Assembly (NCBI RefSeq): GCF_023016005.1
Contig: NZ_JALKAZ010000001.1
Location: 1,922,001-1,986,000 of the forward strand
Reading direction: 5' to 3'
Length of the DNA stretch: 64,000 nucleotides
Source: Erythrobacter sp. F6033
GTDB taxonomy: Bacteria; Pseudomonadota; Alphaproteobacteria; Sphingomonadales; Sphingomonadaceae
Shown: piece by piece, positions 61,256 to 64,000 of the stretch
How positions within the stretch are numbered: position 1 is the stretch's first letter
Layout of the letters: each line of letters starts with the position of its first letter
Made by a program: the position numbers and the translations under genes
Notes under the pieces: model-generated
The model's input: the letters and a program-made list of their open reading frames with translations, nothing else
The model's database searches: none
Told to the model about the DNA's origin: nothing

Positions 61256-62872
61256 TTAATCGAGTGCTTTGTTGATCTCTTCAACCATCTTTTTGGCATC
61301 GGAGAGCAGCATCATGGTTTGGTCCATATAGAACACATCGTTGTCGACACCGGCGTAGCCGACGCCTCCCATTGAGCGTTTAATGAAGAACACCTGCTTG
61401 GCCTTGTCCACGTCAAACACGGGCATGCCGTAGATCGGCGAGGATTTGTCCGTTTTCGCCGCAGGGTTCACCACGTCATTCGCGCCGATGATGAAGGCAA
61501 CATCAGCCTGCGCGAATTCGGAGTTGATATCCTCCAGCTCGAAGACTTTGTCATATTCAACGCTGGCTTCGGCAAGCAGCACGTTCATGTGGCCCGGCAT
61601 CCGGCCCGCGACCGGGTGAATGGCGTATTTGACTTCGACACCTTTGGCTTCGAGCAAGTCGGCCATTTCACGCAATGCGTGCTGCGCCTGAGCCACGGCC
61701 ATGCCGTAGCCTGGGATGATGATAACCTTCTCGGCCTGTTCCAGCATAAAGGCTGCATCGTCTGCGCTGCCTTGCTTATATGGGCGCTGTTCGCGCGCTT
61801 CGCCGTCTCCAGCACCGCCCGCATCCGCGCCAAAGCCGCCAGCGATCACGCTAATGAAGCTGCGGTTCATGGCCTTACACATAATGTAAGACAGGATTGC
61901 GCCGGACGAGCCGACCAGTGCGCCGGTAATGATCATCGCGCTGTTGCCCAGCGTGAAGCCCATCGCCGCCGCGGCCCAGCCGGAATAGCTGTTCAACATC
62001 GACACAACCACCGGCATATCCGCCCCGCCGATCGGGATGATCAGGAGGAAGCCGATGATGAAGGCAAGCACGGTGATCCCGATGATCAGATAGCCTTCGC
62101 CCGCACCGCCGTCTGGCGACATTGCGTATATACCGATCATAGCCAAAATTGCGGTGAGCGTGCCCAGATTGATGACATGGCGCATCGGCAAAAGGATCGG
62201 TGACCCGCTCATTTTGCCCGAAAGTTTCAGGAAGGCGATGACCGAGCCAGAGAATGTGATCGCACCAATCGCGATACCAAGGCCAAGCTCAATCCGGCTG
62301 ACCAACAGGATCTGGTCATTCGCATCCGTGATCCCGAAACTTGCCGGATCAAGCCACGCAGCAAGGCCCACGACAACCGCCGCCAAACCGACGAGCGAGT
62401 GAAAGCCCGCGACCAGTTCCGGCATGGAGGTCATCGCGATCTTGCGAGCAACCGTTACGCCGATAATCGCGCCAATTGCGATTGCAACGAGAACGTAGAC
62501 TCCGCTTTCAAGCGCTTGGAACCCGGTCTCGTAATTGCCGGAATCCGAAGTAAAAACTGCATCCAGTGAAATCGCAAGTGTTGTGAACACCGCGATCAGC
62601 ATACCGATAATGCCGTTGCGGTTGCCCGCTCGGCTGGTCGCGGGGCTTGATAGCCCGCGCAATGCGAGGATGAAGAACACGCCCGCGACAAGATAGGCGA
62701 GCATCGCCCATGCCGGGGTGCCGGCTGCGCCTTCGCCTGCTGCGCGAGCGGGGGCTGCAAGCAGCATCGTCATTCCCGCGAAAGCGGGAATCCAGAGCGG
62801 TAAACGCCGCTCCGCAACGGCATGGATTCCCGCTTTCGCGGGAATGACGAAGTTAGAGAAGAGAGAAGCCAT
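61256..62872 (-). CDS. pntB: NAD(P) transhydrogenase subunit beta with palindromic repeat in the leader
   Basis: 538 residues. Membrane helices followed by the NADP(H)-binding domain III (VIIIPGYGMAVAQAQHALREM; AIHPVAGRMPGHMNVLLAE; IGANDVVNPAAKTDKSSPIYGMPV). Couples hydride transfer from NADH to NADP+ to proton entry. Start ATG 62872 with AAGGAG; two bases after the pntA2 stop. Residues 9-35 are encoded by an 82-bp perfect palindromic element; removing it would leave a short leader MASLFSNF joined to MLLAAPARAAGEG. The rest is colinear with the family, though the total is longer than E. coli PntB (462). Confidence 0.95.
   Translation of the reverse strand: MASLFSNFVIPAKAGIHAVAERRLPLWIPAFAGMTMLLAAPARAAGEGAAGTPAWAMLAYLVAGVFFILALRGLSSPATSRAGNRNGIIGMLIAVFTTLAISLDAVFTSDSGNYETGFQALESGVYVLVAIAIGAIIGVTVARKIAMTSMPELVAGFHSLVGLAAVVVGLAAWLDPASFGITDANDQILLVSRIELGLGIAIGAITFSGSVIAFLKLSGKMSGSPILLPMRHVINLGTLTAILAMIGIYAMSPDGGAGEGYLIIGITVLAFIIGFLLIIPIGGADMPVVVSMLNSYSGWAAAAMGFTLGNSAMIITGALVGSSGAILSYIMCKAMNRSFISVIAGGFGADAGGAGDGEAREQRPYKQGSADDAAFMLEQAEKVIIIPGYGMAVAQAQHALREMADLLEAKGVEVKYAIHPVAGRMPGHMNVLLAEASVEYDKVFELEDINSEFAQADVAFIIGANDVVNPAAKTDKSSPIYGMPVFDVDKAKQVFFIKRSMGGVGYAGVDNDVFYMDQTMMLLSDAKKMVEEINKALD
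62768..62849. repeat. 82-bp palindromic repeat element inside pntB
   Basis: Exact 27-bp inverted arms (62768-62794 and 62823-62849) around a 28-bp centre that holds its own GAGCGG/CCGCTC dyad. Each arm also folds alone as ATTCCCGC-GAAA-GCGGGAAT. The sequence belongs to the widespread proteobacterial palindrome type that, when translated, reads VIPAKAGI...WIPAFAGMT. Confidence 0.93.
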
Positions 62873-62874
62873 TA

Positions 62875-63156
62875 TTACTTCTCCTTTTTCTTGTACATAG
62901 CGAGCATCCGCTCTGTCACGGCAAAGCCGCCAAAGATGTTCACGCTCGCGAGAACAACCCCGAACAGGCCAAGATATTTGGCAGCCGGGCTGCCAGCCTC
63001 GGCCGCCGCAATCAGCGCGCCGACAATAATCACAGAGGAAATCGCGTTGGTCACAGCCATCAAAGGCGTGTGCAACGCAGGCGTAACCGACCAGACCACA
63101 TAATAGCCGACGAAACACGCCAGCACGAAAATCGATAGGATTGAGATAAAGTCCAT
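62875..63156 (-). CDS. pntA2: NAD(P) transhydrogenase subunit alpha part 2
   Basis: 93 residues, the membrane half of a split alpha subunit. Three helices: ISILSIFVLACFVGYYVVW, NAISSVIIVGALIAAA and LGLFGVVLASVNIFGGFAVT, then MLAMYKKKEK. Matches PntAB of Rhodospirillum-type enzymes. Start overlaps the stop of the preceding small gene (TAATG). Confidence 0.95.
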   Translation of the reverse strand: MDFISILSIFVLACFVGYYVVWSVTPALHTPLMAVTNAISSVIIVGALIAAAEAGSPAAKYLGLFGVVLASVNIFGGFAVTERMLAMYKKKEK

Positions 63157-63587
63157 TATTTTTCCTGTCCGGCTTGCCGCTCAACGAGCGCATCCATTCG
63201 ATCCAGCACACTGTTAGCAACAGAGATTTCGAGTTTCTCGCGCTCCAATGTCTCGGGGGCCTCGGGTTCGGGGCACGCGATATCTACGAGCGACATCTGA
63301 TAGTTATAATCCGCCAACGCGATATCCATATCAATCTTCTGGCGCGCCTCGGTCAGGCTTTCAACGAACGCTGCGTATCTCTCAAGCACCGGGTCCATAG
63401 CAGGCGAGGTGCCACACGGATTAAACACCATAGGGATCACGATGGACGCTTCAGCGCGCAGCTGTGCACCCTTGCGAATATCCTCAAGAGAATAGGGGTA
63501 GTCGAGATTGTTACCCAAATGCGCATTCGCCGAAACCGTGGTCGCAGCGGCGGTAGCAAGAACAAGGCTTGCGGTGAGCGCCCTCAC
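63156..63587 (-). CDS. Exported hypothetical protein between the transhydrogenase alpha genes
   Basis: 143 residues, not recognised. Signal peptide MRALTASLVLATAAATTVSANA; the mature part is acidic and helical (LEDIRKGAQLRAEASIVIP, FVESLTEARQKIDMDIALAD) with two Cys (NPCGTSP and DIACPEP) that could form a disulfide. Start is GTG 63587, overlapping the pntA1 stop (GTGA), and its stop overlaps the pntA2 start, so it is translated as part of the pnt operon. The usual alphaproteobacterial order has nothing here. Confidence 0.72.
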   Translation of the reverse strand: MRALTASLVLATAAATTVSANAHLGNNLDYPYSLEDIRKGAQLRAEASIVIPMVFNPCGTSPAMDPVLERYAAFVESLTEARQKIDMDIALADYNYQMSLVDIACPEPEAPETLEREKLEISVANSVLDRMDALVERQAGQEK

Positions 63588-64000
63588 CCCTTCAACCTCT
63601 CACTGACCACTTCGCCGCCCTTTGTCAGGCGGATGGCATCGCCGATCTCTTCATCGAGTTCGGGCTTGCCTGCTTCCATGTCCCAGAACGCGCTGAGGAA
63701 GTTGAAGTGGTTGCGCGCGAACAGGGCCGATGCGTCGGCGGCAAGATGCGCGGGTGTGTTGGCATAGCCGATGATCTTGACGCCGTGTTTCTCGACGACT
63801 TCGTCTGGCTTGGAGCCTTCGACATTGCCCCCTTGCGCCACTGCGAGATCGAAGATCACGCTGCCCGGCTTCATTGTCGCGATCTGCGCATCGGTAACCA
63901 GCACGGGCGCGGCGCGCCCGGGGATCAGAGCGGTAGTGATAACGATGTCTTGCTTGGCGATATGCTCGGAAACAAGCTTGGCCTGAGCGGCCTTGTATTC
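63584..64000 (-). CDS. pntA1: NAD(P) transhydrogenase subunit alpha part 1 (truncated by window)
   Basis: The C-terminal 138 residues are visible; the gene runs past the window end. NAD(H)-binding domain I: VITTALIPGRAAPVLVTDAQIATMK, GSVIFDLAVAQGGNVEGS and IIGYANTPAHLAADASALFARN are the known end of PntAA (segments quoted in parts). First gene of pntA1-X-pntA2-pntB. Confidence 0.95.
   Translation of the reverse strand, partial: EYKAAQAKLVSEHIAKQDIVITTALIPGRAAPVLVTDAQIATMKPGSVIFDLAVAQGGNVEGSKPDEVVEKHGVKIIGYANTPAHLAADASALFARNHFNFLSAFWDMEAGKPELDEEIGDAIRLTKGGEVVSERLKG

Follow-up and report, generated by a model that had tools for sequence, protein, structure and literature searches.

The window analysed here, a stretch of 64,000 nucleotides of the genome of Erythrobacter sp. 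F6033, contains the pntB gene, which is preceded by the gene for its partner subunit, pntA2 (Table 1). The N-terminal leader of PntB reads MASLFSNF / VIPAKAGIHAVAERRLPLWIPAFAGMT / MLLAAPARAAG, and the DNA encoding its central part is a palindrome. A search of the window for inverted repeats (arms of at least 20 nt, no more than 150 bases apart) revealed three such structures. The pntB palindrome was the only exact one, with arms of 28 nt each (62767-62794 and 62823-62850) that are 100% complementary and separated by a loop of 28 nt; the other two were 76% and 80% paired. The initial annotation had described exact inverted arms lying in frame within PntB, and both observations hold: each arm is 1 base longer than the 27 nt given there, and the frame is read through without a stop codon to yield a product of 538 aa. 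The core sequence ATTCCCGCGAAAGCGGGAAT, with up to three mismatches allowed, gave two matches in the window compared with 0.01 expected, and the RNA of the leader folds at -65.7 kcal/mol (z -11.3), a value reached by none of 200 shuffled sequences. The pairing of the arms is thus far beyond chance. Rfam miRNA families resembled the element in hairpin shape only (best score 32.7 bits, cut-off 105 bits).

Table 1. Features of the pntB locus (positions are those of the window).
Feature	Position	Strand	Basis
pntB, NAD(P) transhydrogenase subunit beta, 538 aa with leader	61256..62872	-	ORF; PF02233, E 5.8e-187, residues 58-535
Divergent tract relative to L123 (leader and first third of pntB), approximate, downstream end unsharp	62350..62950	-	windowed identity
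Putative site of signal peptidase cleavage (A-R-A; after residue 44)	62741..62749	-	motif alone; comparable position in relatives
REP unit 2, inverted relative to unit 1; tags face outwards (HH dimer)	62768..62794	+	sequence, repeat search
Spacer between the two REP units, 28 nt	62795..62822	.	repeat search
REP unit 1, 27 nt, with CGTC tag, stem of 8 bp, GAAA loop and CCA tail	62823..62849	-	sequence compared with CGTC-1 description
MASLFSNF, part of the leader preceding the element; its last codon overlaps the element edge	62849..62872	-	translation
pntA2, upstream partner subunit, 93 aa	62875..63156	-	PF12769
AAGGAG, ribosome-binding-site-like, 8 nt before ATG, within the end of pntA2	62881..62886	-	sequence

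Two further features of the locus were noted. An ORF of 143 aa (63156-63587, minus strand) with a signal-like start and no Pfam match lies between pntA1 and pntA2; it is also present in the sister locus L123 and could barely be aligned in L124. Within PntB, the loop SLDAVFTSDSGNYETGFQALESG (window 62500-62650, minus strand) has a core that was found in none of the other 119 homologues among the matches listed.

The assignment of the element to the protein depends on the position of the start codon. The ATG at 62872 is preceded by AAGGAG, and the ATGs that follow it, at codons 34, 36 and 57, show a ribosome-binding-site match of 3 nt at best; codons 34 and 36 lie inside or at the edge of the hairpin. 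A start downstream of the element had been named beforehand as an objection to its being part of PntB, and the AAGGAG sequence together with the comparison of start sites points to initiation upstream. The database copy of this protein (P0004) starts at Met57, which we take for a misplaced start. P0004 and the related entries P0007 and P0008 begin at the Met of MLAYL (window 62704), which hides the leader; automatic gene starts can therefore conceal leaders of this kind. In alignments, the first residue of the PNTB domain (residue 58) corresponds to residue 8 in the solved structure 9l76_C and to residue 6 in 4o9u_B, which places the leader outside the conserved fold. Judged from motifs and Kyte-Doolittle windows, the leader has the features of a Sec signal peptide: a basic n-region, a hydrophobic h-region and an A-x-A c-region.

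On its sequence, the element is classified as a head-to-head (HH) dimer of CGTC-1 REP repeats. Such repeats were defined in the 2013 survey of Di Nocera, De Gregorio and Rocco (PMC3733652) by a CGTC tag, an 8-bp stem with an AT start, a 4-nt loop and a CCA tail; they form HH dimers with spacers of 20-100 bp, and are mainly intergenic, at times being inserted in frame. The description of the element type as normally intergenic, given in the initial annotation, agrees with this survey, as does its comparison with the Rickettsia palindromic elements (RPEs), since the survey equates RPE-6 of R. conorii with CGTC-1 (PMC3733652). The pntB element has CGTC at each outer end, a unit of the form ATTCCCGC-GAAA-GCGGGAAT-CCA, that is, an 8-bp stem with an AT start, a 4-nt loop and a CCA tail, and a 28-nt spacer, which falls within the range of HH dimers. 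Many interspersed copies, also typical of the class, are absent from this genome: the genome-wide search proposed at the outset revealed, besides the pntB dimer, one single unit. These are too few for the element to be called a repeat family here. The single unit lies about 230 bases upstream of a gene that we take to be rpsL. Across the family, matches to the core with at most one mismatch are present in 95 of 199 genomes (up to 103 per genome), and a reversed control pattern gave no match in the 199 genomes. No Y1 transposase (PF01797) was found in this genome, in line with a class that has no dedicated transposase alongside; PF01797 was present in one of six genomes searched.

In order to determine the distribution of such elements, the stretch from pntA2 to the PAWAML motif was compared in 87 usable loci of the genus (this genome included) and 70 loci of other genera. 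The genus sample comprised 96 genomes with a PntB match, again including this one, from which 90 loci were taken (those of G212, G214, G236, G272, G277 and G293, which are cut or short, were not) and L195, L197 and L211 were dropped as partial or broken. The family sample comprised 112 genomes with a match, or 110 after subtraction of this genome and G041; 68 of these, namely those with the highest scores and a selection of the others, were taken, plus L012 and L013. The leaders of the genus fall mainly into two kinds. One is short, M-S/T-FSILAAAADG..., and the other is longer, resembles a signal peptide and ends in PA-x-A. Most relatives have the short leader without a signal, including the nearest one, L123 (PntB 92% identical), and L124, L125 and L127. 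The comparison with close relatives that the initial annotation had proposed thus shows pntB genes lacking the element.

The inserts are confined to one kind of leader. REP-like inserts, labelled by eye from their peptide and arms, were present in 9 of the 16 signal-like leaders of the genus and in none of the 71 others (Fisher 2e-8), and in the other genera in 9 of 25 signal-like leaders compared with 0 of 45 others (3e-5), although these p-values are too strong, because the loci are related. The doubtful leaders L207, L230, L245, L255 and L269, all without an insert, were counted as signal-like. Inserts of the IPAFAGMT type are found in L122, L126, L135, L222, L229, L234, L237, L254, L260 and L274. 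A second type, which starts with CGTCATTGCGAG, is found in L128, L129, L131, L132, L136 and L143, and a third in L256. The signal-like pntB leader of L228 contains, in frame, an unlike palindrome with arms TATCCTTCTCCCC. In L280, one of the 45 loci mentioned above, a REP is located just before the start codon of pntB, outside the frame. In L130, a close relative of L128, the leader is a different one that does not resemble a signal; it contains its own small palindrome (arms of 8 nt). Among PntB proteins in the database, at least 18 of the best 120 of 7999 carry such leaders or remnants of them, and some of the entries have cut starts.

Inspection of the inserts revealed a strong bias in reading frame and position. 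Of the 18 inserts, 14 have clean ends; in each of these, exactly two frames are open and the same kind of frame is used. The used frame ends in AFAGMT, AFAGVT, VFAGMT, AFAGMM, LAMT, FAMT or KPGVT, and the unused open frame ends in Asp. In a hydropathy window the used frame exceeded the unused one in 13 of the 14 inserts, the exception being the element of this genome (1.57 used, 1.67 unused). Five residues separate the end of the IPA-type insert from the PAxA motif in 20 of 23 carriers. The mean hydropathy of the h-region is 1.78 for the IPA type and 2.25 for the second type, overlapping with that of insert-free signal leaders (2.28). In 9 of 10 cases the h-region was more hydrophobic with the element than when the flanks were joined; the effect was strong in some and hardly present in the gene of this genome, where removal of the element leaves the value nearly the same (1.82 vs 1.86).

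The arms show various degrees of wear. In the 23 carriers the second arm is closer to the consensus in 8, the first in 3, and both are equal in 12; in L254, P0022, P0023, P0034 and P0038 the only recognizable arm adjoins the cleavage motif, although the count of retained arms is biased, as carriers were partly chosen by the arm on the cleavage side. The longest exact arms have shrunk to 7-8 nt in L128, L129, L135, L136, L222, L254 and L274, with the frame and the C-terminal arm peptide kept, and P0038-like leaders have one arm only. Leaders with shrunken exact pairing still fold at -51.6 to -89.6 kcal/mol. No purifying selection on the REP peptide was seen in the two insert lineages analysed: pN/pS was 1.01 and 0.91, values close to 1 and not clearly below those of the unused frames (0.71-1.05).

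The surroundings of the element bear on how it reached this gene. The identity between this genome and L123 is 91-95% at 63025-63324 and 93% at 61300-61674, and drops to 58-85% in the windows between 62350 and 63024. Across the same tract L123 and L124 share 79-93%. Some other relatives match this genome better within the tract than L123 does (e.g. L150, 91% at 62600-62800). This mosaic makes a simple insertion of the element in this lineage, as supposed in the initial annotation, unlikely; the element was probably acquired by recombination. Part of the drop may reflect fast local change, since L123 is also poorly matched beyond the tract (65-70% identity at 63325-63624, in the extra ORF) and the values recover slowly downstream (83-91% to about 61825). 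A donor was not found among 114 genomes of the genus (this one included), in which no outside match exceeded 84% identity at E 1e-12, at most 7 candidates per genome being considered.

Other loci point to exchange as well. L128 and L130 have different leaders, flanked by sequence that is 98% alike over approximately 200 bases on the upstream side and 89-98% on the downstream side. The insert of L136 is the same as that of L128 and L129, on another pntB background, and one insert, 78-90% identical, is common to four genera (L126, L234, L237 and L260). The 18 inserts form 12 clusters at 75% identity (L222, L228, L229 and L254 lack clean ends). In a quick tree (LG+G4, with long branches) of 174 PntB proteins, 34 of them carriers, 27 changes of state were counted, at least 15 of which are forced by supported branches; P0033, a near copy of P0024, was left out and L228 was counted as lacking an insert. 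From the tree, the different leaders of L128 and L130 and the inserts shared across genera, it seems that leaders have been exchanged and lost, besides being struck by REPs.

The interpretation that we favour, with a confidence somewhat above even, is that a CGTC-1 REP dimer is carried in frame amid a signal-like PntB leader, which would be cut off after export and would have been imported by recombination. Translation would start at 62872, upstream of the hairpin, which the ribosome would read through. The REP peptide would supply a basic stretch (AKAG..ERR) and part of a hydrophobic stretch (LWIPAFAGMT), ahead of the native c-region MLLAAPARA. PntB of Escherichia coli has an N-out topology, and the leader would be expected to carry the periplasmic N-terminus of the protein across the membrane. 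Cleavage after ARA would leave the mature enzyme free of the repeat, and we propose that this removal is the reason for its tolerance. The leader probably reached this genome as one unit, through recombination of a short tract that came from a different relative. The distribution of the inserts (9/16 vs 0/71, and 9/25 vs 0/45) supports the signal-leader reading, as do the frame bias, the spacing to PAxA, the charged frame used in the cytosolic enzymes and the retention of the arm beside the cleavage motif. The short leaders of most relatives, the REP ahead of the start codon in L280, the hydropathy values of the element in this genome, the three carriers with a better-kept first arm and the two proteins outside the frame rule (see below) count against it. 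The pN/pS ratios speak against a tuned peptide, so that the evidence favours tolerance by removal over a gain of function.

The first alternative, to which we give roughly one chance in four, concerns the origin of the inserts: all of them could go back to a single old insertion into a family leader of the signal type that has since diversified and been replaced, lost or exchanged, with no repeated arrivals. The nearly constant site and the insert common to four genera are consistent with this scenario. It is opposed by the three CGTC-type sequences with unlike spacers, the number of clusters, arms that range from perfect to decayed, and the changes of state forced in the tree, although losses and transfer also contribute to these. 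A marginally less probable alternative is neutral decoration, i.e. that REPs land at random in a leader that is unconstrained, at a junction of tightly packed operon genes, persist only if the frame remains open and play no role in export. The pN/pS values of about 1, the short leaders that suffice in most relatives, and the location of the other REP copies that we inspected, mostly outside recognizable genes, would all fit; the lack of in-frame inserts in 116 non-signal leaders at the same junction, the use of one frame in 14 of 14 cases in spite of two being open, and the nearly fixed spacing to PAxA speak against it. A hairpin effect on translation had been considered in the initial annotation. 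It is improbable that the element acts mainly as an RNA hairpin setting the output of PntB relative to PntA, as the frame and the C-terminal arm peptide outlast the exact arms in seven loci and P0038-like leaders keep a single arm, even though the fold is very stable, lies about 24 nt after the start and persists in leaders with shrunken arms, and N-terminal REPs have been proposed as post-transcriptional elements (PMC3733652).

The reading of a REP inside a removable export signal may be extended, more tentatively: it is conceivable, though we would not expect it, that REPs are a recurrent raw material for signal peptides and that the resulting cassettes move between species by short recombination tracts. 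The hydrophobic frame of a REP would provide the basic stretch, and WIPAFAGMT or xxLAMT would become the h-region. Wear might then lead from a two-arm dimer to one arm and finally to a compact, REP-free signal peptide (P0024, P0023, P0038 and P0022 would represent such forms), and some of the PntB signal peptides without an insert may be worn-down REPs. REPs are usually viewed as intergenic parasites or RNA elements. The occurrence of different repeats at nearly one site in related bacteria suggests that they may be tolerated in, and perhaps help to build, export signals. An orthologous site with different REPs, in one frame and beside a cleavage motif, constitutes a natural experiment on repeats becoming parts of proteins, and if the leader is indeed cut off, this provides a reason why a membrane enzyme bears a repeat unharmed.

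REP copies outside pntB were surveyed in 26 stretches of two genomes, G202 (11) and G088 (15). Sixteen REP-spanning ORFs were scanned with Pfam, and hits were obtained for valS, the L291 methylase and CorA; the REP of the last precedes the domain and probably also the true start. Most of the other copies thus appear to lie outside recognizable genes, although genes without a Pfam match would be missed, since REP-bearing ORFs with no hit (e.g. L310 and L311) were not counted as genes. In-frame REPs in cytosolic enzymes use the charged frame: ValS (G088), TruB (two congeners) and IleS (on a Sphingopyxis plasmid). These loci are L294, L312, L316 and L332 (valS, truB in two species and ileS). Such a frame rule is not general, because of two proteins. 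The L291 methylase has a REP in its last residues, with the first arm in the charged frame and the second reading IPASAGMT. In L335 (1970-2085), from Azospirillum lipoferum 4B, a protein annotated as di-heme has its N-terminus inside a REP (MQTLDPRLRGDDVPNWK..., charged frame), the arm of which immediately precedes an intact signal-like hydrophobic stretch; the annotated start may be misplaced.

Close matches to the leader elsewhere in named genomes numbered 13, of which 8 lie in frames shorter than 100 aa. Two proteins with the same leader, P0003 and P0002, were found, and a further search gave none that were new. P0003 is a metagenomic HEAT-repeat protein (residues 1-40: MVPHVIPAKAGIHRAFRRYFLWIPAFAGMTFLLLTPAFA), an unrelated protein whose signal-like leader contains a REP, and P0002 is an ORF full of REP peptides. 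In 4 of the 16 carrier genomes (G058, G086, G238 and G251) the pntB leader is the only clear match to their own REP type, with one further match in G251 containing three mismatches; the other 12 have more matches, the patterns used being able to detect close variants only.

The element class was already published, and what is new is the site, that is, REPs recurring in PntB leaders. We consider the site to be new as no report of REPs in pntB was found in the titles, abstracts and text passages of the open-access literature searched. The main text of the 2013 survey (PMC3733652) contains neither the word transhydrogenase nor pntB and does not discuss signal peptides. Among REP carriers it names the TruB and tRNA synthetase genes of E. 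litoralis and S. alaskensis (PMC3733652). In contrast to the CGTC-1 REPs of the survey, the pntB site has been hit in many species. The survey suspects that many N-terminal REPs are untranslated (PMC3733652), whereas the start-site and frame evidence for pntB points to translation. A comparable case described there is recB of Xanthomonas campestris and X. oryzae, with different REPs at approximately the same coding site; it differs from pntB in involving two species only, and a link to export is not mentioned in the main text (PMC3733652).

The RPEs RPE-4 and RPE-6 belong, according to the survey, to the same superfamily as CGTC-1 and are similarly inserted in frame; Rickettsia dimers and groups of RPEs encode 20 to 30 residues (PMC3733652). 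This likeness is drawn from the published descriptions, and in pntB the host is not Rickettsia and the peptide is a probable cleaved leader. The RU-2/YPAL element within YPO1552 of Yersinia pestis (Delihas 2007; PMC2759123, PMC2229807) is unrelated to the REPs described here. YPO1552 is a putative exported protein (PMC2759123, PMC2229807), whereas pntB encodes a conserved enzyme and has received many different inserts at one site.
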